DNA from: Phaeobacter gallaeciensis DSM 26640
GTDB lineage: Bacteria > Pseudomonadota > Alphaproteobacteria > Rhodobacterales > Rhodobacteraceae
Direction: 5' to 3'
Assembly (NCBI RefSeq): GCF_000511385.1
Contig: NC_023139.1
Coordinates: 45,816-109,815, forward strand
Length of the DNA stretch: 64,000 nucleotides
Position numbers and translations under genes: made by a program
Shown: positions 8,606-29,257 of the stretch, in pieces
Layout: every line of letters begins with the position of its first letter
How positions within the stretch are numbered: the first letter of the stretch is position 1
Notes under the pieces: generated by a model
Told to the model about the DNA's origin: nothing
Database searches by the model: none
Seen by the model: the letters and a program-made list of their open reading frames with translations, nothing else

Positions 8606-9568
8606 ATGATAAAAGAGATTTTTGACTCGCTGCCACTGCAAGGGCCCGAGTATGTTTTGGAGCGGAATGAGGATCTTCTTCTAACGCTCCCGCCCCACCC
8701 GTTCGGTGGAAAATGGGAGGCCGATGAAGCCTTGCCGGTATTCCATTTTGATCACCACTATGAGCCGCTGAAATTTGCGCCCCCCCGCGGTGTGTTCGAA
8801 GGGCCGAATTTGCGCCTGGAATGGCAAAACATGAACGGCCGTCAGCCGTTTTACCACCGCAACACAGATGCCGAAGAACTGTCTTTTCAGGTCTGCGGTG
8901 ATCGGACGTTGATGACAGAGCTTGGCACGGTTGAGTTGAGGCCGGGTGACTTTTCAAGCATCCCCGTCGGCGTTGCGCACGACAACTTTGGCCGTGAAGA
9001 CGTCCACCTGCTGATCTATCTGCACGGCCCGATGGAAACGACGATGGAACCGGCGTTTGTCAGCGAACATCTGGTGCCGCCCTTCGAGGGATGGAGCCCG
9101 GCGAATATGTCCGAGGCTACGACTTCTTGTTTGGGGGGGCCGCATTGTGATGTTTCGGTGTCGATGGCGCAGGAGGATCTGCTGCTTGACGCGGCAAAGA
9201 CGCGCAGTGAGAGACTAGAAGTTCTTAGACCCGATGGCGCTCCTGGTGAGACCGATTGGATTTACAAAACCAAGCGGATTTGGGTCGGCAGCACGAAGCT
9301 CGATTCAACGGCACCACGGTTTTACCGCCGACACCGTGTCGCAGACGAAATCCAGTGTCAGATCATCGGCACGCGGACGCTGGTCACGCAACGCGGCACC
9401 GTTACGCTCAATCCGGGTGACTACGTTTCGATCCCGTTTGGCTGTGCGTTCGGAAGTTTCTCGGACGCGCCGTCACAGCATATTTCTATTCTGACGCAAG
9501 AGGAGGCACCGCCTGCGGCCGAACCCGCACGCTTTGCAGAAATGAACTCAGGTATTCGTTTGGGATAG
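8606..9568 (+). CDS. Bicupin related to homogentisate 1,2-dioxygenase
   Basis: 320 residues with two cupin barrels. The first holds Y-H-R-N-T-D-A-E-E-L, i.e. His84-x5-Glu90, and V-A-H-D-N near residue 125: a His/Glu/His set like the Fe(II) ligands of homogentisate dioxygenase. In the second cupin the equivalent block is Y-R-R-H-R-V-A-D-E and the last His is replaced by C-A-F, so only the first domain looks able to bind iron. Lengths of homogentisate dioxygenases are nearer 430, so this is a shorter relative. The strong site GGAGGAGG precedes it. Between an aldolase and an alcohol dehydrogenase it probably cleaves a dihydroxylated ring, substrate unknown. Confidence 0.7.
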   Translation: MIKEIFDSLPLQGPEYVLERNEDLLLTLPPHPFGGKWEADEALPVFHFDHHYEPLKFAPPRGVFEGPNLRLEWQNMNGRQPFYHRNTDAEELSFQVCGDRTLMTELGTVELRPGDFSSIPVGVAHDNFGREDVHLLIYLHGPMETTMEPAFVSEHLVPPFEGWSPANMSEATTSCLGGPHCDVSVSMAQEDLLLDAAKTRSERLEVLRPDGAPGETDWIYKTKRIWVGSTKLDSTAPRFYRRHRVADEIQCQIIGTRTLVTQRGTVTLNPGDYVSIPFGCAFGSFSDAPSQHISILTQEEAPPAAEPARFAEMNSGIRLG

Positions 9569-10721: not shown

Positions 10722-11711
10722 ATGACCAAGAACATGCACCCCGGCCCACGGATTGATAGAACCTACCGTCTGGATTTCATCGGCGATTGGGGTCAGGCAA
10801 ACTTCCACCGCATCATGTCGTGGCTGACTCAGGAGTTCTGCGATCGTGCGGGTCCGAGAAGCCGGACCCGGATATCCAGTGTTCTGGGAGGTGGTCTTGA
10901 AGCGCTGACCGAAGTTCATGAAGGGGCGGCGGATCTCTGTCTTGTCACGCCGCACCTTTTGATGGCGCAGGCTCTGACAGGAGAGGGCATCTTCGCCGAG
11001 TTGGGCGCGATGCCGAATCTCAGGGCCTTGGCGGTGTTGCCGCAGGTGGACCGAATGATGCTGGCCGTTGCTCCTGAATTCGGAATCGAGAGCTTTGAGG
11101 ATCTGCGCACCAAAAAGCCTGCACTGCGCTTTGTCACTTCTACAGATGCAGAAGGCAATTTCATTGGCTACGTGGCCACGCGCTTTTTGGCGGCGCATGG
11201 CATATCACGTGACATGATCACTGAATGGGGCGGTGAGATGATCACTGCGCACCGCCCTGATGAGTGCCTTGAACTGGTGCGTTTGGGCAAGGCGGATGCC
11301 GTTTTGCAAGAAGCGATCATGACACCCTGGTGGCGCAATCTGGTTGAAAGCGGCCAGATGCGCCCCGTTCCTGCAGAAGAGACCCCGCTTGAGGCTTTGA
11401 CTGGCGAACTTGGCATGCCAGCGGCCACCATCCCTGCGGGCTATTGGTCAGGGTATGATACGCCGGTGCCCGCGTTGGATTTCTCGGATTTCATCATCGT
11501 CGTACGCGATGACATGCCCGAAGAGGTGGCGCATCTTCTGACCTGGTGTCTGGTCGAAACCCGCGGCGCAATTGAACAGCAGTACGCGCATATTCCACCA
11601 GACCGCAGCCCGCTGAGCTATCCTCTGCAGCCAGAAAAAATGCCCCGGACCGCGTTGCCGCTGCATCCCGGCGCCCAGCGATTTTATGAGGAAGCCGGGC
11701 TGCTGTCTTAG
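10722..11711 (+). CDS. Signal-less TAXI/NMT1-type binding-fold protein, copy 1
   Basis: 329 residues. The fold looks like TAXI-family TRAP solute receptors: F-E-D-L-R-T-K-K-P block, E-W-G-G-E-M-I-T, A-D-A-V-L-Q-E-A, and the typical end L-H-P-G-A-Q-R-F-Y-E-E-A-G. There is no signal peptide: the N-terminus is polar and begins the conserved L-D-F-I-G-D-W-G-Q-A-N-F-H-R-I within 30 residues. No TRAP permease adjoins it. A close paralogue is at 17261-18250, also next to a dienelactone hydrolase. Known precedent: 4,5-dihydroxyphthalate decarboxylase is a cytoplasmic enzyme with a binding-protein fold. An enzymatic or ligand-sensing role in the cytoplasm is therefore proposed; the substrate is unknown. 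Confidence 0.7.
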   Translation: MTKNMHPGPRIDRTYRLDFIGDWGQANFHRIMSWLTQEFCDRAGPRSRTRISSVLGGGLEALTEVHEGAADLCLVTPHLLMAQALTGEGIFAELGAMPNLRALAVLPQVDRMMLAVAPEFGIESFEDLRTKKPALRFVTSTDAEGNFIGYVATRFLAAHGISRDMITEWGGEMITAHRPDECLELVRLGKADAVLQEAIMTPWWRNLVESGQMRPVPAEETPLEALTGELGMPAATIPAGYWSGYDTPVPALDFSDFIIVVRDDMPEEVAHLLTWCLVETRGAIEQQYAHIPPDRSPLSYPLQPEKMPRTALPLHPGAQRFYEEAGLLS

Positions 11712-11798: not shown

Positions 11799-13400
11799 TT
11801 ACTTTGGTGTCGCGCCCGCTGTCAGGCTTTGGATCACGGGCAACAGCCCTGCGATATTCCCAACCGGTTCAATCGCCGCGACGTAACGATCCCGGCGCAG
11901 CAACAGCGCATGCCCCAGACAGTCCCGGAACGGTTGCTGCGAGAAAAAGCGGCTGCGGTCGCGCAGGATCGGGAAGGCGGCGGTAACCGGATTGGTCCAT
12001 TCTGGTGTCAGGCCGATGACCTCTGCTCCGGCACTGCGCAACTGCTCAATCAGTGCGGCATCCACAGCCCTATCCGGCGCTTCGTCAAAGACCAGTACAA
12101 CAGGGCGATCCGGCAAACAGGCATCCAGCAGCCGTTCTTCACGCGACAGCGTGTTCACCAGGGGTTGCGGGATCATCCGGCCCACGGCACCTGCGCCAGC
12201 GCCGCTTGCAACCGGGCGGATCATACCGTCCGAGAACTTTGGCTTTGGCTTGTACTTCATCTGCGCAACATAGTCCCGCGCCGGGCCATAGAGGCCCAGC
12301 AGACGGAACCCGGTGCGGGTCATAAAACCGCGCAGCGCCGAATCCGGCATCATCACCTTGCCCATTTTCAACGCCAGTTCGATCATCGACCAGGCGTGGG
12401 GTTTGCGTTCTTTTTCATAACTGTCGAGCAGGGCTCCCGGATTAGCCATATCCAGAGCTTCAGCCAGCTTCCAAGCCAGGTTATGGGCATCCCGCAAGCC
12501 GCTGTTCATCCCCTGACCCGCGAAAGGTGGGGTCAGGTGTGCAGCGTCCCCAGCCAGAAAAACCCGCCCGACGCGCCATTTGCTGGCGATACGGGCGTGG
12601 AATGTATAGACCTTTTGACGCCGGATAGGCTCGTTTTCATCGGGGCCGGTCTCGGCCAGAAGTTTGCGGCCGAAAGCTTCTTCTTCGGCCTCTTCCACTG
12701 TTTCGCCGGGGTTGAGCTTGAACTCATAACGCCGAATGCCGCCGGGACCGGGCAGGGTAATGGCTGAACGCTTGGGCGCGCAGAAAACCTCGGTGTGAAA
12801 ACAGCGGTTCTTCGTGGTTTCCAGATCAACGATCAGCCAGGGCTCTTCGAAAGTGGAGCCTTCGAGTTGAATATCAAGCGCCTTGCGGGCCTGGGATCGC
12901 CCGCCGTCAGCGGCCACCATGTAACGGGCGGTCACTGCTTGCGGCCCATCTGGGCCTGTCACTTCGGCCGTAACGCGATCCTCGCCTTGCTCAAAGCCGT
13001 CAAGCGTTATGCCAAATCGTGCCTCAACAGAGGCATGACGCGCCAAAGCCTTGCGCATGAGGGCCTCGAACTCGGGTTGTTCAAAGGCGTTTCGCTTGTC
13101 GAATCCGTACTCTTTGACGAAGGGCTTCACCTCGGCAAATTGCCGCCCGGATGGCCCCCGATAAAGGGAGCCATAACCTTTTGCCGTGATGGTGGCCACC
13201 TCGTCAGACAGCCCTGCGGCTTGCAGCGCGCGCATGGATTCGTCATCGATGGACACTGCCCTGGGTTCTTGCACGGTCGTTTTGTTGCGCTCTATGAGGA
13301 TCGTTTTGATCCCCATAGAGCCCAGAAGATTGGTCAACAAAAGCCCCGTAGGTCCCGCCCCAATGACGAGAATATCAGTGTCCAGCGCTGTGCCCTGCAT
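11799..13400 (-). CDS. FAD-dependent aromatic hydroxylase, MhpA-like
   Basis: 533-residue class A flavoprotein monooxygenase. It has G-A-G-P-T-G-L-L-L near residue 15, the D-G-G-R-S-Q-A-R variant of the DG motif near 165, and G-D-A-A-H-L-T-P-P-F-A-G-Q-G-M-N-S-G-L-R-D-A-H-N-L near 290. A C-terminal thioredoxin-like region, common in MhpA, PheA and resorcinol hydroxylases, follows. The start overlaps the end of the upstream FAH gene. With the extradiol dioxygenase and FAH-type hydrolase on the same strand it forms a three-step module: hydroxylation, meta-cleavage and hydrolysis. The substrate is probably a monohydroxylated phenyl compound. Confidence 0.82.
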   Translation of the reverse strand: MQGTALDTDILVIGAGPTGLLLTNLLGSMGIKTILIERNKTTVQEPRAVSIDDESMRALQAAGLSDEVATITAKGYGSLYRGPSGRQFAEVKPFVKEYGFDKRNAFEQPEFEALMRKALARHASVEARFGITLDGFEQGEDRVTAEVTGPDGPQAVTARYMVAADGGRSQARKALDIQLEGSTFEEPWLIVDLETTKNRCFHTEVFCAPKRSAITLPGPGGIRRYEFKLNPGETVEEAEEEAFGRKLLAETGPDENEPIRRQKVYTFHARIASKWRVGRVFLAGDAAHLTPPFAGQGMNSGLRDAHNLAWKLAEALDMANPGALLDSYEKERKPHAWSMIELALKMGKVMMPDSALRGFMTRTGFRLLGLYGPARDYVAQMKYKPKPKFSDGMIRPVASGAGAGAVGRMIPQPLVNTLSREERLLDACLPDRPVVLVFDEAPDRAVDAALIEQLRSAGAEVIGLTPEWTNPVTAAFPILRDRSRFFSQQPFRDCLGHALLLRRDRYVAAIEPVGNIAGLLPVIQSLTAGATPK

Positions 13401-13401
13401 C

Positions 13402-14259
13402 TCAGGACGTGCTTTCTGCCATAATCGGATTGGTCAGCGTTCCAAGCATGCCAATCTCAACCTCAACCACGTCGCCGGGTTTCATATAGAGCGGCGGATC
13501 CCGCCGATCCCCGACCCCACCGGGGGTTCCGGTGACGATGACATCACCGGCGGAAAGCGGCGTGTAGGTGGAGATGTATGAAATCAACCGCTCAATCGGA
13601 AAAATGAGGTCTGAGAGGGTCGCATCCTGCATCACTTCGCCGTTCAGACGGGTCTGGATCGGCAGCTTGGTGTAATCGCCCACCTCATCGGCAGTGACCA
13701 TGCAGGGGCCAAAACCACCGGTGCCGGGAAAGGTCTTGCCGGGCCCGAACTGATGCGTGTGGCGCTGCCAATCCCGAATGGTGCCGTCGTTGTAACAGGC
13801 ATACCCCGCAACGTGGGACAGGGCCGTCTCTTCGGGGATGCAGCGGCCCCCGCGCCCGATGATGACGGCCAGTTCACCTTCGTAGTCGAGCTTGTCAGAG
13901 ATGGCGGGCATGATCATCGGTTGACCATGGGCAATCTGGCTGTCGGGATACCGTGCGAACATCGTTGGATGTTTCGCATCGGGCCGTTTGGTTTCTGCGC
14001 GATGGGTTTCGTAATTCAGACCTACACAGAGGATTTTCCCAGCATCCGGGATGACAGGCAAAAGCACTGCATCGGTCAGGGTAAAATCTGGCGACCGCCC
14101 TTCTGTATAACGGGCCGCAGCCTCCATGAGATCGGCGGCAATCAACGCCTTGAGGCTTGTGACGTCCGGTCTGAGCTTGCCGGTCAGATCGACGATGCCG
14201 CCAGGAACCAGAGCGCCGACACCGGCCGCGCCCAGGCGTGTGAAGCTGATGAGTTTCAT
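13402..14259 (-). CDS. FAH-family hydrolase of the meta-cleavage module
   Basis: 285 residues in the longer FAH subfamily with an N-terminal extension (M-K-L-I-S-F-T-R-L-G). Family blocks are I-L-C-V-G-L-N-Y-x-x-H, D-Y-E-G-E-L-A-V-I-I-G and A-G-D-V-I-V-T-G-T-P-G-G-V-G. The ATG at 14259 with GGAG upstream is preferred to an in-frame start at 14301 that lies within the upstream gene. Such proteins hydrolyse acylpyruvates, or act as 5-carboxymethyl-2-hydroxymuconate isomerase-type enzymes. It lies between the extradiol dioxygenase and the MhpA-like hydroxylase, so a ring-cleavage product is the likely substrate. Confidence 0.82.
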   Translation of the reverse strand: MKLISFTRLGAAGVGALVPGGIVDLTGKLRPDVTSLKALIAADLMEAAARYTEGRSPDFTLTDAVLLPVIPDAGKILCVGLNYETHRAETKRPDAKHPTMFARYPDSQIAHGQPMIMPAISDKLDYEGELAVIIGRGGRCIPEETALSHVAGYACYNDGTIRDWQRHTHQFGPGKTFPGTGGFGPCMVTADEVGDYTKLPIQTRLNGEVMQDATLSDLIFPIERLISYISTYTPLSAGDVIVTGTPGGVGDRRDPPLYMKPGDVVEVEIGMLGTLTNPIMAESTS

Positions 14260-14273
14260 GTCTATTTCTCCGA

Positions 14274-15125
14274 TTATGACCGCAAAACGGCGCGACCCCA
14301 TTTGTTGAGCGTGCGTGCGTCCTGGGGCCAGTCGATAACGTCGCGGTCGTAGATGGTTTCCAGTTCACCTGAAATCTCGATCCAGTTGCCGTCCGGGTCG
14401 GTGTAAAACACAAACAGGTTATTGCCAGGTCCATGGCGGCCAGGCCCCCAGGTCAAAAGCACATCATTGGCAGAGAACCGGTCGCAGAACTGTTTGATGT
14501 TGTCCATCGTGCCCGCCTCATAGGAATGATGGTCCACGCCAGTGCGATCGGATTTGAAGCACGCGATCGTGTGATGTTCGTGGTTCGTCGTCGTAAAGAT
14601 CGTGGCCGGTTCGCCATTTTCGTGCAGCACGCGATCGGACAGGAAAAAGCCAAGCTTATCGACGTAGAATTCTTTGAAACCTTCGATGTTCTGGGTCGCG
14701 AAGGTCAAATGCTGGGTTGGCGCATGGATGCCATCGCGTTCGGGCTTGTAAGAGACAGTGCGCGTTTTCGCCATCCCAAAGCAAATCAGATGTCCATCGT
14801 TGTCACGCACCGCAAAGGCCCCATCTTCGAAGTAGGGGGACACGTTATCGAGGATTTCCACCCCATTCGCCTCGGCCAGCGCACGCTGATCCGCAAGCAC
14901 CCCGGCATTGCGATAAGCCAGCCCTGCATAGGCAAGCTTCTGGTCTTCACCTTTCACCGCCACGAAACGGCGCAGCGGACCAGTGCAGCGAAATTCGGTG
15001 TCGGAAATCTTCTCGACATCCATGTCCATGTTAGCGGCATAGAAATTGGCGAGGCGCTCAGGGTCTGAACTCTCGAAAGCGACGTGGTGCAGATAGGCTC
15101 CTGCCTGGACAGTGCTATGTGGCAT
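14274..15125 (-). CDS. Type I extradiol (catechol 2,3-dioxygenase-like) ring-cleavage dioxygenase
   Basis: 283 residues in two VOC repeats. The C-terminal repeat carries the metal triad: His139 in Q-H-L-T-F, His199/200 in V-D-H-H-S-Y-E, and Glu250 in D-G-N-W-I-E-I-S-G-E. Tyr241 (F-Y-T-D-P-D-G) and His184/185 sit where catalytic residues of this class occur. It should cleave a catechol-type ring next to the hydroxyls. It is the first gene of a minus-strand operon with the FAH hydrolase and MhpA-like hydroxylase, divergent from an IclR regulator. Confidence 0.88.
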   Translation of the reverse strand: MPHSTVQAGAYLHHVAFESSDPERLANFYAANMDMDVEKISDTEFRCTGPLRRFVAVKGEDQKLAYAGLAYRNAGVLADQRALAEANGVEILDNVSPYFEDGAFAVRDNDGHLICFGMAKTRTVSYKPERDGIHAPTQHLTFATQNIEGFKEFYVDKLGFFLSDRVLHENGEPATIFTTTNHEHHTIACFKSDRTGVDHHSYEAGTMDNIKQFCDRFSANDVLLTWGPGRHGPGNNLFVFYTDPDGNWIEISGELETIYDRDVIDWPQDARTLNKWGRAVLRS

Positions 15126-17260: not shown

Positions 17261-18250
17261 ATGGCCAGCGCAACAGACCGGCAAGTTCAGCCGCAACTAG
17301 ATCGAAGTGTTCACCTGAACTTTACCGGCGACTGGGGGCAGGCGAACTTCCACCGTATCTGTTCCTGGCTCTGCCAGGAGGTTTGCGACCGTACGGCAAA
17401 GGGGTCTAGAGTCGGGATCTGGAACCTGATCGCCGGGGCAGATTCTCCCATCGCGGTGTCAAAGGGGGAGATGGACCTTTGCATCGCCACCCCTGTCCAG
17501 ATGCTGCCCGGCGCTCTGGCTGGAGAAGGCATCTTTGAGGGCAATCCTTTGCCCCGCCTCCGCACGCTTGCCATCCTGCCGCAAACAGACCGCATGGTTT
17601 TCGCGATTGATCCCAAATATGGAATCACAAGTTTCGAAGAGCTGCGGCAGAAAAAACCACCGATCACTTTGGCGACATCTGAAGATGATGGCGTCAATCT
17701 GATTGGCTATACAGCAGCCCGCTATCTAGAAGCGCATGGAATTGACCGGGCAACGCTTGAATCCTGGGGTGGTCATCTGGTTACCGACACCCGTCCGGAG
17801 CAATCGGTCTTCCGCATGCGGGACGGCGAAGTCGATGCGCTGCTGCAAGAGGCATACATGACCCCATGGTGGCGGGATGCCGTTGCCAGGCGGTCTCTGA
17901 CTTTCCTGCCTGCAGAAAGCGCCGCACTGACGAAGCTGGAAGAGCAATACGGCTGGCAACGGGCGACAATCCCTGCCAACTTCTGGGAAGGCCAAACAGA
18001 AGCGCTCGCTGCACTGAACTTCTCGGATTTCGCAGTGCTTGTGCGGGACGACATGCCCGAAGATCTCGCCCACCTCTTGACTTGGTGCCTGGTTGAAACG
18101 CGCGAGGTTATCGAACAGCAGTTCCGCCATATTCCGCCGGAGCACAGCCCTCTCAGCTATCCGCTGGAGCCGAAACGCATGGCGGCGTCCCCGATCCCGC
18201 TGCATCCAGGCGCTGCACGGTACTACAAAGAAGCGGGCGTCATCGGGTAA
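17261..18250 (+). CDS. Signal-less TAXI/NMT1-type binding-fold protein, copy 2
   Basis: 329 residues from the ATG at 17261 (an in-frame TTG at 17201 precedes the ribosome site). It parallels the protein at 10722-11711 throughout: L-N-F-T-G-D-W-G-Q-A-N-F-H-R-I near residue 19, F-E-E-L-R-Q-K-K-P-P, D-A-L-L-Q-E-A-Y-M-T-P-W-W-R, D-D-M-P-E-D-L-A-H-L-L-T-W-C-L-V-E-T-R and the end L-H-P-G-A-A-R-Y-Y-K-E-A-G. No signal peptide or lipobox is visible and no permease is adjacent, so it should be cytoplasmic. It is followed after 42 bp by a dienelactone hydrolase, the same pairing as copy 1. Function unknown; an enzyme with binding-protein fold is one option. Confidence 0.7.
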   Translation: MASATDRQVQPQLDRSVHLNFTGDWGQANFHRICSWLCQEVCDRTAKGSRVGIWNLIAGADSPIAVSKGEMDLCIATPVQMLPGALAGEGIFEGNPLPRLRTLAILPQTDRMVFAIDPKYGITSFEELRQKKPPITLATSEDDGVNLIGYTAARYLEAHGIDRATLESWGGHLVTDTRPEQSVFRMRDGEVDALLQEAYMTPWWRDAVARRSLTFLPAESAALTKLEEQYGWQRATIPANFWEGQTEALAALNFSDFAVLVRDDMPEDLAHLLTWCLVETREVIEQQFRHIPPEHSPLSYPLEPKRMAASPIPLHPGAARYYKEAGVIG

Positions 18251-18292: not shown

Positions 18293-19006
18293 ATGGCTAT
18301 TGATAGCAAGACAATCTCAATCACTGCGGCTGATGGCCAATCTTTCTCAGCCTATCGCAGCCGCCCTGCGTCAGGAGACGCCATTGGCGGAATCATCCTC
18401 GTTCAGGAAATCTTTGGCGTGAATGATAACATCCGGGCCGCGTCCGACTGGTTCGCAGCTCAGGGATATGATGTGATTGCGCCCGATATGTTCTGGCGCC
18501 AAGAGCGCGATGTAGAGTTGAACGCCGCATCAGAGGAAGACCGCAACAAGGCCATGGCCCTGATGCAGGGATTTGACCTTGAGGCAAGCCTGGGCGACAT
18601 GGATGCCGCTGCGAACCTTCTGCGCGAAGACGCCAATCTGGCCGGAAAAATCGGTGTGGTTGGATACTGTTTGGGTGGTCGGGTTGCGTTCCGGATGGCT
18701 GCCTCTGATGCAGCGGATGCGGTCGTGTGCTTCTACCCCGTGGCAATCAGTCAGGACCTTGCAACCAGCACCGGCCCGCAGGCCCCGCTTCTTATCCATC
18801 TGGGCGCCGAGGACCACCTGTGCCCGCCGGAAGCCCAGGCCGCCATCACTGAACATGTGCAAAAGTCCGATACGGGAACCGTAACCGTTCACGACGGTGT
18901 CGGCCACGCCTTTGCCCGCCTAGGCCGCAGCGGCCGCGCAGAAGAGGCAGCCGTTTCAGCGGAAGCAGCGACCTTGGACTTCTTCAAGAAACATTTGGGC
19001 GCGTGA
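18293..19006 (+). CDS. Dienelactone hydrolase family protein, copy 2
   Basis: 237 residues with the Cys-Asp-His triad: Cys126 in G-Y-C-L-G-G, Asp174 in A-E-D-H-L-C-P-P-E and His205 in G-H-A-F-A-R. Opening blocks V-Q-E-I-F-G-V-N-D-N-I-R and D-M-F-W-R-Q-E-R-D-V mirror copy 1. The ATG at 18293 follows a weak GGAGCACGAC site. It forms a two-gene unit with the TAXI-like gene upstream and is closed by the terminator at 19052. Probably opens a lactone formed in aromatic breakdown; the substrate is not determined. Confidence 0.87.
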   Translation: MAIDSKTISITAADGQSFSAYRSRPASGDAIGGIILVQEIFGVNDNIRAASDWFAAQGYDVIAPDMFWRQERDVELNAASEEDRNKAMALMQGFDLEASLGDMDAAANLLREDANLAGKIGVVGYCLGGRVAFRMAASDAADAVVCFYPVAISQDLATSTGPQAPLLIHLGAEDHLCPPEAQAAITEHVQKSDTGTVTVHDGVGHAFARLGRSGRAEEAAVSAEAATLDFFKKHLGA

Positions 19007-19829: not shown

Positions 19830-21050
19830 TCAGCGGCGGGCCGCCTTCATTATTTTGCGAAGGGGTACATCGCTATCAGCGAACGTGGCTTCGTCGCCGA
19901 AAAACTCCGGATCGGCAATCATTCTGCGCAGCAGCGGCATATCCCGAGCCTGATTGAGTGTCACAGCGCCCGTGATCTTGTTGCCGGTCAGCTGGACAAG
20001 CGTCACACCGCCATCCTCACTGATGCGTTCTACGGCCGGTCTGTCCGCATCCAGCATGCCGAGGATCTGGATATTGAGGTCGCCCTGATCGGACCAGAAC
20101 CAGGGAGTGGTCGAAACCTCCGTAAGCTGTCCTGCTGCGGACCGCCCGGCGGCGTCGCCTTGAACATTGGCATTTTCCCAGGACTCCAGGCGCATATGTC
20201 GGCCATAGGCTGGGTTCATCTGGTTCACCGCATCCCCGATGGCAAAAACATCCGGGTCCGAGGTCCGTCCGAAACTGTCAGTTTTTATCCCGTTTTCAAT
20301 GCTTAAGCCTGCTGCTTCTGCCAACGACGTTTCAGGGTCGACTCCAATGCCGACCAGTATCATATCCGTCGGCAAGACTGTGCCGTCAGACAATTGCAGG
20401 CCACCATCCTTGAACGCGCTTGCCTGAACGCCGAACAGGAACTGCACACCGCTATCAGAATGATATTTCTGTACACGTGCACTGACTGCTGGCGACCCGA
20501 TCCGCGGCAGCAGTGTTTCGCCCGCCTCGACGATTGTAACAGCACAGCCAAGTTTCTGCGCAGTGGCCGCGACTTCCAATCCGATGAAGCCACCGCCAAT
20601 AACCGCCAGGCGCCTGCCCGGGTTCAACTGCTCTCTCAGCTTGATGCAATCCCCCATGCTGCGCAGATAGTGAACCGCACTCTCATCTGCGCCCTCCAAG
20701 GAGATTCGCCTCAGCTTGCTGCCGGTGGCAAGAATCAGGCTGTCATAGGCAAGGTCACCGCCCTGCTCGAGACTGGCAATCTTCGCGGCCCGGTTAATGT
20801 GCGTGACAGTCTCTCCCAGCCGCAGCTGGATACCTTGCTCCCGCGCAGCGGCCTCATCGAAAACATAGGGCACCTTCGTCTCTGCATCCAGCAGCATCGC
20901 CTTAGACAGAATCGGCCTCTCATAGGGGGCAAATGCCTCTTTGGCGACCACAGTAATATCAGCAGATGGATCAGTTGAGCGTGCAGCCAGAGCCGCACGG
21001 CCCCCAGCTTGCCCCCCGCCAACGATCACGATTTTCCGTCTATTAGACAA
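19830..21050 (-). CDS. NAD(P)H:ferredoxin/rubredoxin-type FAD oxidoreductase
   Basis: About 406 residues. It has an FAD motif V-G-G-G-Q-A-G-G-R-A near the N-terminus, a second Rossmann motif V-I-G-G-G-F-I-G-L-E-V-A near residue 155, and the FAD-terminal F-A-I-G-D-A-V-N motif near 275. This is the layout of ferredoxin reductase subunits of Rieske oxygenases and P450s. The TTG at 21050 gives the standard N-terminus, but GGTGGAG ends only 2 nt before it, so the start is uncertain; a longer in-frame version begins at 21158. It is divergent from the SCP2/cupin operon and could feed electrons to the CxxC-bearing cupins or to the flavodoxin encoded there. Confidence 0.82.
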   Translation of the reverse strand: MSNRRKIVIVGGGQAGGRAALAARSTDPSADITVVAKEAFAPYERPILSKAMLLDAETKVPYVFDEAAAREQGIQLRLGETVTHINRAAKIASLEQGGDLAYDSLILATGSKLRRISLEGADESAVHYLRSMGDCIKLREQLNPGRRLAVIGGGFIGLEVAATAQKLGCAVTIVEAGETLLPRIGSPAVSARVQKYHSDSGVQFLFGVQASAFKDGGLQLSDGTVLPTDMILVGIGVDPETSLAEAAGLSIENGIKTDSFGRTSDPDVFAIGDAVNQMNPAYGRHMRLESWENANVQGDAAGRSAAGQLTEVSTTPWFWSDQGDLNIQILGMLDADRPAVERISEDGGVTLVQLTGNKITGAVTLNQARDMPLLRRMIADPEFFGDEATFADSDVPLRKIMKAARR

Positions 21051-21310: not shown

Positions 21311-21631
21311 ATGACCAAACCCACACTCGAAGAGATGACTGCTGAAATGCGCAAGCGCGTTGGTGAAGACAGCGGCTTCGGACATACTGTGAAATTCAAC
21401 TTTGGCGACGATGGCGTAATTTTCATTGACGCCAAGAATGTTCCTCATGTCGTGTCGAACGAAGACAACGACGCAGAAACAATCGTGAATATTAAGTTCG
21501 GAGACTTCTGCAAGATTTCCGATGGCAGCAAGGACCCAACGGAAGCATTCATGGCCGGCCGGATGACGATCGACGGCAACGTTGATGCGGGCTGGAAGCT
21601 TGGCTCCATCATCGGGCCTGACCGGGCTTGA
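21311..21631 (+). CDS. SCP2 sterol-carrier-domain protein
   Basis: 106 residues forming a stand-alone SCP2-like domain: V-K-F-N-F-G-D-D-G-V-I-F-I-D, then D-A-E-T-I-V-N-I-K-F-G-D-F, F-M-A-G-R-M-T-I-D-G-N-V-D-A-G-W-K-L. SCP2 domains bind acyl chains or hydrophobic ligands. The ATG at 21311 has a strong GGGAGGAG site; an in-frame ATG at 21236 is rejected because it precedes that site. First gene of an operon with two cupins. A role in presenting a hydrophobic substrate to the cupins is inferred only. Confidence 0.8.
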   Translation: MTKPTLEEMTAEMRKRVGEDSGFGHTVKFNFGDDGVIFIDAKNVPHVVSNEDNDAETIVNIKFGDFCKISDGSKDPTEAFMAGRMTIDGNVDAGWKLGSIIGPDRA

Positions 21632-21669
21632 TGCCGGCGTTTCTGACACCCAACAGGAGACGATAGCCA

Positions 21670-22362
21670 ATGAGCACTGACAGCAAGCAATTGACCATTG
21701 CGCCGCCCGATCCGGACCGGCCTCCACTGGCCTCTAACGCATTCCACGCTGCACGGACTGCAAACACAACACTGACAACCCCCTTCCCCTATGTCACTGA
21801 AGAATGTCTTGTCCCGGGCATCGCCCTGTTTCAGGGCGACTTGGGCGACGCGGGCATGGGGCACTTCCACCACACGAACTCGGTAGATGAAACCTTCCTC
21901 TGCCTGGCTTCGAAAGGATCCGCAGTGCGTACCGGGACCTTGATGGTGGGTCCGCGCAGCCATCATGTCGGCTCTTTCTTTGAAAATGAACGCGACCCGG
22001 AGAATGTGATGCTGATGATCGTTGTTCAGCGTCAATCGGCCAAAGGTGTGCGGCAGCACGAAGGTCTGACCTTCCACTGCCACAAGTGCCAGAACGTCAT
22101 GCTGGATCACGAGTTCGACGTCGAGAACTACAACGAAATCCGCGGCCCGGTCCCCGGATACTTTGCCCCGCTGGAAACGCTTCTCAAGAGTTTTGAGTTC
22201 GGCAAGGAATACAACGACAGCGTTGACGTACGGACCTGCTCAAAATGCGGGCACGTGCACGACAAGTTCCCGATGCATGTTTGGGGCTGGACCAATTACC
22301 ACACCAACTACGAAGCCAGTGAGCATTGCCGTGATTTGCTCATTGAAGCAACGTCAGCTTGA
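21670..22362 (+). CDS. Cupin dioxygenase-like protein with CxxC pairs, related to 3-hydroxyanthranilate 3,4-dioxygenase
   Basis: 230 residues. The cupin core has H-F-H-H-T-N-S-V-D-E-T with His68 followed six residues later by Glu74, and His98/His99 in P-R-S-H-H-V, so a His/Glu/His iron site like that of 3-hydroxyanthranilate dioxygenase is present. Two CxxC pairs (C137/C140, C190/C193) resemble the rubredoxin-like second iron site of the bacterial enzymes, though they are further apart here. It lies between an SCP2 gene and a second cupin with the same CxxC layout. Ring cleavage of an aminophenol- or hydroxy-aromatic acid is likely; true kynurenine-pathway activity is doubtful as no kynurenine genes are nearby. 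Confidence 0.68.
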   Translation: MSTDSKQLTIAPPDPDRPPLASNAFHAARTANTTLTTPFPYVTEECLVPGIALFQGDLGDAGMGHFHHTNSVDETFLCLASKGSAVRTGTLMVGPRSHHVGSFFENERDPENVMLMIVVQRQSAKGVRQHEGLTFHCHKCQNVMLDHEFDVENYNEIRGPVPGYFAPLETLLKSFEFGKEYNDSVDVRTCSKCGHVHDKFPMHVWGWTNYHTNYEASEHCRDLLIEATSA

Positions 22363-22383
22363 TCTCAGCGAGGAGAAAGAAAG

Positions 22384-22953
22384 ATGCCACGCAGGCGATT
22401 TCACCAAACATACCAACTCGCTCAGCAGATCGGCTGCTTTGACGAATACCCGGCGATCTCGGAAGGTGTCGACCCACAGGTCAACATCAGCCGCAGTGAC
22501 CGCGTTCAGCCGTTTCATCTGATCTGCGAGAAAGACACAATGATCGTGCTGATGTCCGGCGCGGCCAAAGTCGAGTTCCGCCAGAGCAGTGTGAATTATG
22601 TGAATGGCACTCCGGGCGAGATGATTTACGTTCCCGCCCGCATTCCGCACCGCGTCGTGCCTTCGGAAGAAACCATTCTGTACCGCTACAAGGCAGAACA
22701 TGCCGGGCTGGAAGCTGTGGCATGGTATTGCGAGGGCTGTGCCTCGGAGGTTGCCCGCGTAACATGGGACACCGCCGAAGAACTGCCGCAAGAAGGGTAT
22801 CTGCGGGCGACCGCTGCCTTTAACAGCGATCAGGCCATGCGGACCTGTGACACCTGCGGCAAGGAGCATCCACCAGTGGATACAACCGGCAACCGCTGGC
22901 AAGAAATCATCGACGAGCTGACAGCAGAAGCAGACGAAGATGACGACTGGTAG
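22384..22953 (+). CDS. 3-hydroxyanthranilate 3,4-dioxygenase-like cupin, variant metal site
   Basis: 189 residues, the length of bacterial 3-hydroxyanthranilate dioxygenases, with the matching end A-W-Y-C-E-G-C (C116/C119) and R-T-C-D-T-C-G-K (C155/C158) that binds a structural iron in that family. In the cupin core His45 and His89 (A-R-I-P-H-R) are kept, but the Glu expected six residues after the first His is Asp51 or lost. Catalysis is therefore uncertain. The product may pair with the cupin at 21670, which keeps the full triad. Acidic tail D-E-D-D-D-W. Start ATG 22384 with GAGGAG upstream. Confidence 0.7.
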   Translation: MPRRRFHQTYQLAQQIGCFDEYPAISEGVDPQVNISRSDRVQPFHLICEKDTMIVLMSGAAKVEFRQSSVNYVNGTPGEMIYVPARIPHRVVPSEETILYRYKAEHAGLEAVAWYCEGCASEVARVTWDTAEELPQEGYLRATAAFNSDQAMRTCDTCGKEHPPVDTTGNRWQEIIDELTAEADEDDDW

Positions 22954-23005
22954 GCTGTGCTGCGTTTAACTATTCCTTTCACTCAGCAATCCGGAGAATC
23001 GCTTT

Positions 23006-23794
23006 ATGGCTACAGCAGATAAACTTCTATCAGTCATGAAGCTTTTCACCATGGATGAACCTGAATGGACGGTAGAAGAGGCGACCAAACGCCTGGAACT
23101 GTCCAGCAGCTCAACCTACCGCTACTTCAACAGCCTAAGTGCTTTAGGCTTTGTAGAGGCGCTGAACCCCGGTGTTTATACGCTGGGTCCTGCAATCATC
23201 GAATTCGACAGGATGATCAGGCGGCAGGATCAGCTCGTCAAAACCGCAACGCCGATCATGCGGCGGCTGGTGGACTTAACCGACGATGCCGGTTCCGTTC
23301 TGTTGTGCCGGAAATTCCGCCATCAGGTAATGTGTGTGCACAGTGAGGGGTTTGTCGATCCGGATAAGTCTCTTTCCTATGAAAGAGGCCGCCCTTTGGG
23401 CCTGTTCCTGGGCGCAGCGTCGCGTGTCGTGCTCGCCTATATTCCGGGGCGCAATCTCAAGGTGATCTATGCTGAAAATGAAAAGGAAATAGCAACCTCC
23501 GGCCTGGGTGCCACCTGGGAGGAATTCCGGCGCAGCTTGAAGCGCATTCGCAATGACGCGATCGTAGTCGCTTACGGGCAGCTCGACGCAGGGAAAGTCG
23601 GCATTGCAGCACCGATCTTTGCTGCCAACAAGTCAATCATCGGCAGTATCACGCTTGTCCTCAACGAACACGAGGTCAACACACAGATGGTGGAGCGGCT
23701 GTCGATCTACGTCCAGGCAGCGGCTCAGGAGGTTACTCTAGGGCTCTCGGCAGCTTTCAATGACAAACACCCCGGCGCGTCCGGATCTGAATGA
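23006..23794 (+). CDS. IclR-family transcriptional regulator
   Basis: 262 residues. The helix-turn-helix region W-T-V-E-E-A-T-K-R-L-E-L-S-S-S-S-T-Y-R-Y-F lies at residues 21-41 and the effector domain contains R-P-L-G-L-F-L-G-A-A-S-R-V-V-L-A and K-V-G-I-A-A-P-I-F-A. It is on the same strand 52 bp after the second cupin and 37 bp before the flavodoxin, so probably co-transcribed with its target operon. Good site GGAGAATC before ATG 23006. Confidence 0.87.
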   Translation: MATADKLLSVMKLFTMDEPEWTVEEATKRLELSSSSTYRYFNSLSALGFVEALNPGVYTLGPAIIEFDRMIRRQDQLVKTATPIMRRLVDLTDDAGSVLLCRKFRHQVMCVHSEGFVDPDKSLSYERGRPLGLFLGAASRVVLAYIPGRNLKVIYAENEKEIATSGLGATWEEFRRSLKRIRNDAIVVAYGQLDAGKVGIAAPIFAANKSIIGSITLVLNEHEVNTQMVERLSIYVQAAAQEVTLGLSAAFNDKHPGASGSE

Positions 23795-23831
23795 GCTGAC
23801 TCCAATTAGTGGAATCGGCGGGAGAAAGAAA

Positions 23832-24302
23832 ATGAGCGAACATCCTATTGTTGTTCTTGTTGCTTCCATGAGCGGTGTTGCCGAAATGGTCGCAGACGAA
23901 GTGGCAGATAAGCTTAACGAGCTTGGCCACAAGGCACGTGTCGTCCGCATGGAAAAAGCATCGCAAAAAATGCTGGATGCGCGAGACACCTAAGTGATTT
24001 GCAGCTCCACATACGGAACGGGCGAAGTTCCGGACAACGGCAAGCCATTTCATGAATTCCTCACCAAAGAGCGCCCCAACTTGTCCCATGTGCGTTATGG
24101 CGTAATCGCTTTGGGAAGCCAGGACTATCCACAGACATTCTGTGGCGGCGGCAAGGCATTTGATGCGACCTTCGCCGATTTGGGCGCGAAACGCCTAGTC
24201 GACCGGATGGAGCATGACGCAAAATCCGGCGTCTACCCGGAAGAAGCCGCGCTTGAATGGCTGGACGGCTGGGCAACTGCTTTGTCCGCAGAACTGGCCT
24301 GA
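23832..24302 (+). pseudogene. Flavodoxin-domain gene interrupted by an in-frame TAA
   Basis: From ATG 23832 (site GGGAGAAAG) the frame reads 53 codons: I-V-V-L-V-A-S-M-S-G-V-A-E-M-V-A-D-E-V, a MioC/flavodoxin FMN-phosphate loop. It then meets TAA at 23991-23993. The same frame continues at once with V-I-C-S-S-T-Y-G-T-G-E-V-P-D-N, the second FMN loop, through L-G-S-Q-D-Y-P-Q-T-F-C-G-G-G to TGA at 24302. Without the stop it would be a normal ~156-residue flavodoxin. GTG follows the TAA directly, so a separate C-terminal peptide could be made. Nonsense mutation is the simplest reading. Its likely partner is the reductase at 19830. Confidence 0.8.
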
Positions 24303-28417: not shown

Positions 28418-29257
28418 CTACGCGCCAGGAACCGGAAGGCCCAGAAGCGACCGGGCTTCCATCCAGGTTGCCACCGGACGGCAGTATCGATGGCAAACCT
28501 CAGCGGTTCGTGCAACCAACGCCGCATTTGACGGCGCAAGCGTTTCCCGGTCCAAACGAATATTGTCTTCCAGACCGGTACGGGCGTGTCCACCTGCCGC
28601 AACAGACCATTCATTCAGCTCCAGTTGATGGCGGCCGATACCTGCGGCACACCATTCAGATTCCGGCGCGAGCCGTTCCATCGTCTTCACATAGTAATTG
28701 AACACATTCTTGTCCGCCGGCATCGAATTCCGGACCCCCATGACAAACTGAACATACAGTTTTCCAGGAAGCTTGTTCGCCTTGCTCATCGCAACCGCTT
28801 GGTGAATGTGGCTCAGGTCAAAAGCCTCGATCTCGGCGGTGACAGAGTATTTCTTCATCTCATCCGCCAGCCATTCGACCAAATCCGGCGGATTGTCATA
28901 GGTCCGGTTGGGGAAGTTGGTGGACCCGACCGACAAAGATGCCATATCGGGCCGAAGCGGAAGACTGCCGCCGCGTTCACGCCCTGCCCCCGACCGGCCG
29001 CCGGTAGAGAACTGAACAATCATACCCGGGCAATGTTCATTCAGCCCTTCCAGCAGACGGCCGAACCTTTCCGGATCGGATGTCGGCGTGCCGTCATCAT
29101 TGCGAACATGGCAATGGGCAATCGACGCACCGGCCTCGAAGGCGGCCTGTGTGCTTTCAATCTGTTCCGAAACTGTGATCGGCACAGCCGGGTTGTCTGA
29201 TTTCTGCGGCAAGGAGCCGGTGATCGCCACACAGATGATGCAAGGTTTTTGCGTCAT
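28418..29257 (-). CDS. Beta-keto acid cleavage enzyme (BKACE/Kce family)
   Basis: 279 residues with the family's zinc-binding H-C-H (His48, His50) in A-G-A-S-I-A-H-C-H-V-R, the S-T-G-G-R-S-G-A-G block and V-G-S-T-N-F, plus E-I-E-A-F-D near residue 142. BKACE enzymes condense a beta-keto acid with acetyl-CoA and split it into acetoacetate and a new acyl-CoA. It starts 4 bp after the hydroxyquinol dioxygenase stop, so it is in the same operon. Since that pathway yields 3-oxoadipate, a beta-keto acid, conversion to succinyl-CoA plus acetoacetate is a plausible job. Conserved family is clear; the substrate is inferred. Confidence 0.85.
   Translation of the reverse strand: MTQKPCIICVAITGSLPQKSDNPAVPITVSEQIESTQAAFEAGASIAHCHVRNDDGTPTSDPERFGRLLEGLNEHCPGMIVQFSTGGRSGAGRERGGSLPLRPDMASLSVGSTNFPNRTYDNPPDLVEWLADEMKKYSVTAEIEAFDLSHIHQAVAMSKANKLPGKLYVQFVMGVRNSMPADKNVFNYYVKTMERLAPESEWCAAGIGRHQLELNEWSVAAGGHARTGLEDNIRLDRETLAPSNAALVARTAEVCHRYCRPVATWMEARSLLGLPVPGA

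Follow-up and report, generated by a model that had tools for sequence, protein, structure and literature searches.

Two adjacent cupin genes on a Phaeobacter plasmid

The DNA analysed here, called the window, is a 64,000-nucleotide stretch of a 109.8-kb plasmid of Phaeobacter gallaeciensis (NC_023139.1, positions 45,816 to 109,815), and this study is about two adjacent genes on it, cupinA and cupinB, that encode two cupins resembling 3-hydroxyanthranilate dioxygenase (3HAO), and about the redox genes that accompany them (Table 1). Since the genes running from the SCP2-domain protein to the flavodoxin all lie on the forward strand, with gaps of 38, 21, 52 and 37 nucleotides, they likely form a single operon; the reductase gene is divergent, its start is that of the RefSeq annotation of strain P11 and its BphA4-like product scored 345.7 bits with the HcaD model (cut-off 450). 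An earlier reading of the letters alone (the sequence-only reading) had named these same neighbours and all of them are present, although it overlooked that the flavodoxin frame is interrupted by a stop codon.

The same cupin proteins in the same gene order are encoded on 109,815-base plasmids of P. gallaeciensis P11, P75, P73 and P63, while P128 and P129 carry 109,883-base versions of the plasmid, with a cupinB that is 99.4% identical. Around the cupins extends an island of aromatic catabolism that includes gentisate-type genes, flavin hydroxylases, VOC and intradiol dioxygenases, dienelactone hydrolases, a maleylacetate reductase and TRAP/ABC transporters.

Table 1. The cupin genes and their neighbours in the window (window positions)
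Feature	Position	Strand	Remarks
SCP2-domain protein	21311-21631	+	PF02036, 39.1 bits; first gene of the likely operon; lineage-specific
cupinA, 230 amino acids, proposed catalytic subunit	21670-22362	+	3HAO-like; H68/E74/H98 and four cysteines (C137, C140, C190, C193)
cupinB, 189 amino acids, proposed partner subunit	22384-22953	+	3HAO-like; H45/D51/H89; C116/C119/C155/C158
IclR-type regulator, probably local	23006-23794	+	nearest NCBIfam model PcaR/PobR, below its cut-off
Flavodoxin, MioC-like	23832-24302	+	frame interrupted by TAA at 23991-23993 in the window strain
FAD-dependent ferredoxin/flavodoxin reductase, BphA4/HcaD type	19830-21050	-	PF07992 and PF14759 (Pyr_redox_2 and Reductase_C)
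TAXI-like NMT1_3 protein, no evident signal peptide	17261-18250	+	PF16868; most frequent partner of the pair
Dienelactone hydrolase family protein	18293-19006	+	PF01738; recurs in the module

The two cupins are nearly always encoded together

An alignment of 31 cupinB proteins (the window protein and 30 of 112 listed homologues) served to scan about 85,000 species, each represented by one genome, giving 34 loci, and the set used throughout consists of 33 scan loci, the window and a plasmid of Sphingobium AntQ-1, making 35. Kept out of the counts were L037 (a partial match with no cupinB frame), other copies of the plasmid (L003, L038, L062-L065) and re-fetched or second copies (L055-L061), and P0002 was left out of the trees; L012/L034, L014/L029 and L032/L033 are loci that share one genome.

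The cupinA gene was found directly beside cupinB in 34 of the 35 loci. Occurrence of the cupins apart from each other, which the sequence-only reading had set down as the finding that would speak against it, was encountered at a single locus (L017, Enhygromyxa SWB007), where cupinA lies on another contig. At two loci, L014 and L019, both cupins are encoded in one open frame in the order B-A, and this gene order is also seen in L035, L058 and L059. All 31 genomes that had been chosen for their cupinB contain cupinA, the loci having been gathered through cupinB and cupinA without cupinB having been checked for in a plasmid collection, where separate searches with cupinA and with cupinB returned the identical seven records. 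Evolutionary distances among cupinA proteins mirror those among cupinB proteins (r 0.80 over 33 pairs, without L034, whose cupinB is truncated; none of 1000 permutations reached as high a value), a correlation that is partly due to common species history.

The pair occurs in Pseudomonadota, Myxococcota, Actinomycetota, Chloroflexota, Dormiibacterota and Vulcanimicrobiota (titled Eremiobacterota), and it is sparse close to the window: cupinA was found in 1 of 101 genomes of relatives and in 1 of 198 genomes of the family, each time the window's own, and the Pseudovibrio cupinA is 93% identical to that of the window. Adjacency, fusion and correlated distances together give strong support, at the level of sequence, to the proposal already made in the sequence-only reading that cupinA and cupinB form a heteromeric enzyme. 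Locus L026 holds, at a contig end, a second cupinB-like gene (L026:11063-11662) on the opposite strand, next to its A-B-flavodoxin genes.

CupinA keeps 3HAO-like ligand residues and cupinB has altered them

At E values up to 0.001, no Pfam family was detected in either window cupin, and among NCBIfam models only weak 3HAO matches were obtained, far under their cut-offs: 33.3 bits against 145.95 (TIGR03037) and 42.3 against 220 (PRK13264) for cupinB, and 27.4 against 220 (PRK13264) for cupinA. Profile-profile comparison matched both proteins to 3HAO (cupinA 96.3%, E 1.6e-9; cupinB 98.5%, E 1.7e-15), and 3HAO was the best structural match for the predicted fold of each, with 3HAOs leading the ranking for cupinA among the best 22 and the best 20 rows of two listings. 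The cysteines of the CxxC pairs of both cupins align with those of 3HAO; some cupinB members also gave weak zinc-ribbon matches. Residues, profiles and fold thus bear out that these are two adjacent 3HAO-like cupins with two CxxC pairs each.

In cupinA, H68, E74, H98 and the four cysteines are invariant in 35 of 35 aligned rows, so that the site is more than a chance resemblance; by its residues, cupinA has the 2-His-1-Glu iron site of 3HAO, with H98 as a partly deduced ligand. That cupinB carries an aspartate in place of the glutamate (H45/D51/H89 in the window protein) had been noticed before and proved to hold in all 35 rows. Its first histidine is a tyrosine or phenylalanine in 24 rows and a histidine in 11, the window's included, and a His-Asp-His set is found in 11 of the 35 rows. 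Two CxxC pairs are present in 32 of 35 cupinB rows; the other three are the two fusions, L014 and L019, whose cupinB halves have lost the four cysteines (Cys4), and one row ended by a contig end.

Sixteen of the 31 genomes were searched for 3HAO itself, and 7 of the 10 genes above cut-off were aligned. R50, R102 and E113 are invariant in these seven; they lie near the iron in 3HAO and have a substrate-binding role. CupinA has no conserved arginine where R50 and R102 stand in 3HAO: positions 61-65 lack one (arginine at 61 in 8 of 35 rows), position 102 is serine in 19 and asparagine in 6 of 35, and position 120, which corresponds to E113, is glutamine in all 35. The plasmid has its own true 3HAO gene outside the window (C3:24116-24607, 218.2 bits, above cut-off), and since cupinA also lacks the conserved arginines, a kynurenine-type substrate is unlikely. 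We therefore rejected the idea of a kynurenine-pathway enzyme, on the sub-threshold scores, the missing arginines and the separate 3HAO.

The pair thus resembles 3HAO (NbaC, TIGR03037/PRK13264) in its predicted cupin fold and C-terminal Cys4, and cupinA also in the H-x5-E spacing of its first ligands, but it differs in having two different subunits instead of one, in family scores far below cut-off, in the cupinA positions just described and in the redox partners found near part of its loci. The CxxC pairs were rejected as evidence of redox function, being common to 3HAO, and 3HAOs need no electrons.

Flavodoxin, reductase and other carrier genes recur near the pair

We located cupinA, Reductase_C and Flavodoxin_1 genes in the 31 genomes and derived expected values from gene counts and genome sizes. 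Of the 31 genomes, 7 have a Flavodoxin_1 gene no more than 4 kb from cupinA (0.088 expected) and 5 a Reductase_C gene at such a distance (0.087 expected), and within 12.5 kb there is a flavodoxin in 8 of 31 and a reductase in 8 of 31 (0.27 expected), figures to be read with the facts that the genomes are not independent, that their sizes are rounded, that many are drafts and that the cut-offs of 4 to 12.5 kb were chosen after looking. Positions were copied by hand, and some matches on contigs without cupinA were dropped from the position lists and kept in the expected counts. These statistics cover flavodoxin and reductase, not Rieske ferredoxins, which abound in some of the genomes. None of 10 true 3HAO genes (from 9 of the 16 genomes searched) has a flavodoxin or reductase gene within 12.5 kb, a weak control because a sample of ten at the rate seen for cupinA would be empty about once in 20, and some of these genomes lack such genes altogether.

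Reductase and flavodoxin are found together in the modules of the window (flavodoxin interrupted), Pseudovibrio (L004), Colwellia (L013), Pseudomonas guariconensis (L025) and Rhizobiales 62-17 (L029/L057), as well as in Sphingobium AP50 (L005/L056), where the reductase is 11.6 kb off, and in Pseudomaricurvus (L006/L055), where both are 10-11 kb off. Locus L026 has a flavodoxin and no near reductase, and the two Nonomuraea loci L032 and L033 have a reductase and no near flavodoxin. Elsewhere, other carriers take this place. In L014 and L019 the fused gene is followed immediately by a Rieske ferredoxin gene, and in L007 such a gene lies next to cupinA in divergent orientation; L002 has a PDR-type reductase with a Fer2 domain right behind the pair, and L021 has a 4Fe-4S ferredoxin at a distance of 3.8 kb. 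Some type of carrier or reductase is encoded within about 4 kb of 14 of the 34 pairs (15 counting L006, at about 10 kb); a flavodoxin or Rieske ferredoxin lies within 4 kb of 10 of the 34, the window's being interrupted, and a PDR reductase of one. The cupinA tree contains a weakly supported clade (36/77) in which each of the nine members has a near carrier or reductase.

The stop codon in the window flavodoxin is an in-frame TAA at codon 54 of 157. It is common to the plasmid records of P11, P75, P73 and P63 (one of which may be the window's own strain), and the frame is intact in P128 and P129, two Pacific isolates, and in the Pseudovibrio homologue; the stop probably reflects decay of the electron carrier at the level of strains.

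A third cupin family, related to cupinA and with H-x5-E and two CxxC pairs, was seen at L007:1048-1674, L008:16170-16823 and L009:16145-16798. It always adjoins a ferredoxin gene, of Rieske type in L007 and of Fer2 type in L008 and L009 (in L009 by motif only).

What the electrons may be for

We infer that cupinA and cupinB would combine as two subunits into a single non-haem iron oxygenase of the 3HAO superfamily, in which cupinA would hold the 2-His-1-Glu iron and do the chemistry, while cupinB, its site lost or altered, would act as partner and scaffold, as does one subunit of the two-subunit hydroquinone 1,2-dioxygenase (HQDO). Electrons would pass from NAD(P)H to the BphA4-type reductase, then to flavodoxin and on to the cupin pair; other bacteria would use a Rieske ferredoxin as the carrier, or a reductase that has a ferredoxin domain of its own. 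Their most likely role would be to bring the iron back to Fe(II) after off-pathway oxidation, as small ferredoxins do for some extradiol dioxygenases. The reaction would likely be an oxygenation or ring cleavage of a hydroxylated aromatic, within a pathway that, in several loci, may also employ a flavin hydroxylase, a VOC dioxygenase and hydrolases of the fumarylacetoacetate (FAA) and dienelactone types. This combination, a heteromeric cupin oxygenase with a catalytic cupinA whose iron is most likely re-reduced by a dedicated chain, is the explanation that we tentatively favour.

Several observations weigh against it. With the profiles and motifs applied, no near carrier or reductase was found for 20 of the 34 pairs (19 if L006 is counted), some of which lie on short contigs, so that a near chain is not universal. 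The carrier trait is clustered on the cupinA tree, where well-supported branches force at least four changes. In Pseudomaricurvus (L006/L055), the flavodoxin, hydrolase and reductase genes lie about 10-11 kb from the pair, grouped with a TAXI-like gene. The interrupted flavodoxin is the only Flavodoxin_1 gene found in the window genome; the carrier of the window strain has therefore probably been lost or replaced, the chain having decayed or another carrier serving it. Most genomes in which a chain lies near the pair also contain, at other places, Rieske or P450 genes that are possible clients. As for the active sites, H98 is assigned as third ligand from its invariance and from secondary structure, the profile alignment being shifted there, and the window cupinB may not be inactive, because a His-Asp-His site could form. 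The redox link that the sequence-only reading had suggested is accordingly best called supported but unproven: flavodoxin, reductase and other carriers do recur, but many pairs lack a near chain and the CxxC pairs lend it nothing.

Between reactivation and a regular use of electrons, the evidence is divided. The joint presence of reductase and carrier, and the variety of carriers in one place, lean towards regular use, whereas the many loci without a near chain and an ancestry among electron-independent 3HAOs lean towards reactivation. Should electrons be used in every turnover, the pair would be a multicomponent cupin mono- or dioxygenase that works like a Rieske oxygenase or P450 system, with NADH, reductase, carrier and perhaps a Cys4 iron feeding the iron of cupinA. 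We consider this unlikely, if still the strongest competitor: a reductase with a carrier, and not a lone small ferredoxin, is indeed what is found in the window (carrier interrupted), L004, L005, L006, L013, L025 and L029, different carrier types fill the same place and the Cys4 of cupinA is invariant, but the nearest relatives, 3HAOs, do without electrons and share the Cys4, the chain is not visible near 20 of the 34 pairs, and the fused cupinB halves have lost their cysteines. This last loss argues against an obligate relay through cupinB and leaves the invariant Cys4 of cupinA as a candidate. The fuller form of the idea, a cupin counterpart of Rieske and P450 oxygenases that would take up NADH electrons at each turnover through interchangeable carriers (flavodoxin, Rieske ferredoxin or PDR reductase), perhaps by way of Cys4 iron, we rate slightly lower still; if true, a ring-cleaving scaffold would have been turned into a reductant-dependent oxygenase.

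It is rather improbable, too, that reductase and flavodoxin serve another enzyme of the pathway, such as a Rieske oxygenase, a P450 or a VOC dioxygenase, and lie near the cupins through shared regulation only. A VOC dioxygenase is near in the window, L005, L013, L025, L030 and L031, and in L055 the chain is grouped with the TAXI-like gene and the hydrolase gene, some 10 kb away from the cupins. A search for Rieske and P450 genes covered nine of the 31 genomes as well as the AntQ-1 plasmid, with positions read for the stronger Rieske matches, a group that does not include those of the window genome. Most of these genomes have such genes somewhere, several to many of them outside Colwellia; examples are P. 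guariconensis with 6 Rieske domains, Sphingobium AP50 with 27 and Rhizobiales 62-17 with 56, and Nonomuraea with 57 P450 matches. Yet the Colwellia draft (L013), with both reductase and flavodoxin in its cupin cluster, has one weak Rieske domain and no P450 in the genome, and the gene table of P11, which is incomplete, shows neither a Rieske nor a P450 gene in the 40.7 kb that surround the pair. Moreover, at L029, L026, L032, L033, L002, L014 and L019, carriers or a reductase stand immediately by the pair with no VOC match in the stretch searched. Neither cupin has a Rieske domain of its own in the Pfam scan.

The pair is very unlikely to be a metal-dependent lyase, isomerase or hydratase acting on a ring-cleavage product with Cys4 sites as structural zinc ribbons, since this would leave the recurrent redox partners hard to explain and sits badly with the invariant 3HAO-type H-x5-E pair and later histidine of cupinA and with the lead of 3HAOs among its structural matches, even though cupins are functionally diverse, a passage of PMC12746152 describes the cupin hydratase LumY in another aromatic pathway, and the weak zinc-ribbon matches of some cupinB members would fit.

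Other recurring and local partners

The recurring set consists of cupinA, cupinB, the TAXI-like protein, the dienelactone hydrolase, flavodoxin and reductase. In 17 of 31 genomes, Streptomyces and Mycobacterium among them, an orthologue of the TAXI-like protein is encoded no more than 12 kb from cupinA, and the N-termini read show that the protein begins directly at the mature domain. Matches to the dienelactone hydrolase profile were obtained in the window, L013, L021, L025, L030, L055 and L056, and a flavin hydroxylase, a VOC enzyme and an FAA hydrolase occur together in the window, L005, L013, L030 and L031. The SCP2 profile had matches at just three of the loci scanned: the window, its Pseudovibrio near-copy L004 and the sister plasmid L038. 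We rejected the SCP2 protein and the IclR regulator as core parts, both being local, and the conserved co-occurrence of all five families that the sequence-only reading had proposed to check therefore fails. Its interpretation is, overall, partly supported, and the finding behind it is real and more general than the window shows.

Some further features of the window deserve mention. It encodes two paralogous TAXI-like NMT1_3 proteins (10722-11711 and 17261-18250), of which the second and its relatives share a conserved GDWGxAN-HR stretch and have no evident signal peptide; such proteins are possibly cytosolic ligand binders or enzymes and not transporter parts. A flavin hydroxylase, an FAA hydrolase and a VOC dioxygenase follow in a row at 11799-15125. 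The gene at 8606-9568, annotated by RefSeq as homogentisate 1,2-dioxygenase in the P11 copy, matched no Pfam family at E values up to 0.001 and adjoins an alcohol dehydrogenase gene and the TAXI-like gene at 10722-11711. Next to an intradiol dioxygenase gene, positions 28418-29257 encode a BKACE protein (475.4 bits, against a cut-off of 350 for 3-oxoadipate:acetyl-CoA acetyltransferase), with a maleylacetate reductase close to it in the P11 copy; a hydroxyquinol route perhaps ends in this BKACE.

Discussion

Each element of the proposed system has a precedent, and the combination was not met in searches of open PMC papers, where no description of this cupin pair with redox partners appeared among the results listed, most subscription journals lying outside that scope. 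A close architecture is that of type II hydroquinone 1,2-dioxygenase (PnpCD, HqdAB), likewise made from two different adjacent cupin genes with one metal-binding product, a likeness deduced here from residues, as some cupinB proteins could bind metal too. According to passages in PMC10306065 and PMC3222310, such two-subunit cupin dioxygenases have only one functional metal site. The sizes differ, with HQDO bands of 38 and 19 kDa given in the abstract of PMC3222310 as against 230 and 189 amino acids for cupinA and cupinB, and the profile matches in the PDB contained no HQDO chain for cupinA (E up to 1) or for cupinB (E up to 0.1).

For the electron supply, two kinds of system invite comparison. 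The XylT system, for which the literature search gave no match, joins an extradiol dioxygenase of the VOC fold to a plant-type ferredoxin as carrier. As there, a small carrier gene stands next to a gene for a presumed ring-cleavage dioxygenase, but here the client would be a cupin pair and the putative donors are a reductase with flavodoxin or a Rieske ferredoxin. Reactivation of an extradiol dioxygenase by a ferredoxin is mentioned in a passage of PMC3222310 and in the title of a reference there. Multicomponent Rieske oxygenases use the same kind of reductase (BphA4/HcaD), and Rieske ferredoxins are present in L014, L019 and L007; unlike in those systems, the recurring set is without a Rieske oxygenase, and the cupin pair is the recurring candidate acceptor.

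In the isoflavone (ifc) and flavonoid (fde) A-ring clusters, as treated in part of PMC11069340, a flavin hydroxylase, a VOC dioxygenase and a cupin occur together, and the flavin hydroxylase and VOC enzyme open the A-ring route. The window, L005, L013, L030 and L031 resemble these clusters in their flavin hydroxylase, VOC and FAA hydrolase profiles. The ifc cluster differs in that its two cupins are 65% identical, redundant copies and not an A-B pair, and the main text of that paper mentions no flavodoxin or ferredoxin. The main text of the paper on the anthraquinone degrader Sphingobium AntQ-1 does not contain the word cupin and gives no substrate clue, and the AntQ-1 pair falls outside the stretch of 68,745-106,725 bp that it highlights; nor did the main text of the Herbaspirillum naringenin paper (PMC4440368) have a match for fde, cupin or monooxygenase.

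Descriptions of ring-cleaving cupin dioxygenases usually have them require Fe(II) and O2 only. A cupin oxygenase that is widespread, almost invariably paired and served by an electron chain of its own would, if true, widen this picture, and it would offer a compact system for studying the purpose of the Cys4 iron in the 3HAO family. Two protein families whose window members have no Pfam match would gain a function, and the pair may lead to a further step of aromatic breakdown in marine and soil bacteria.

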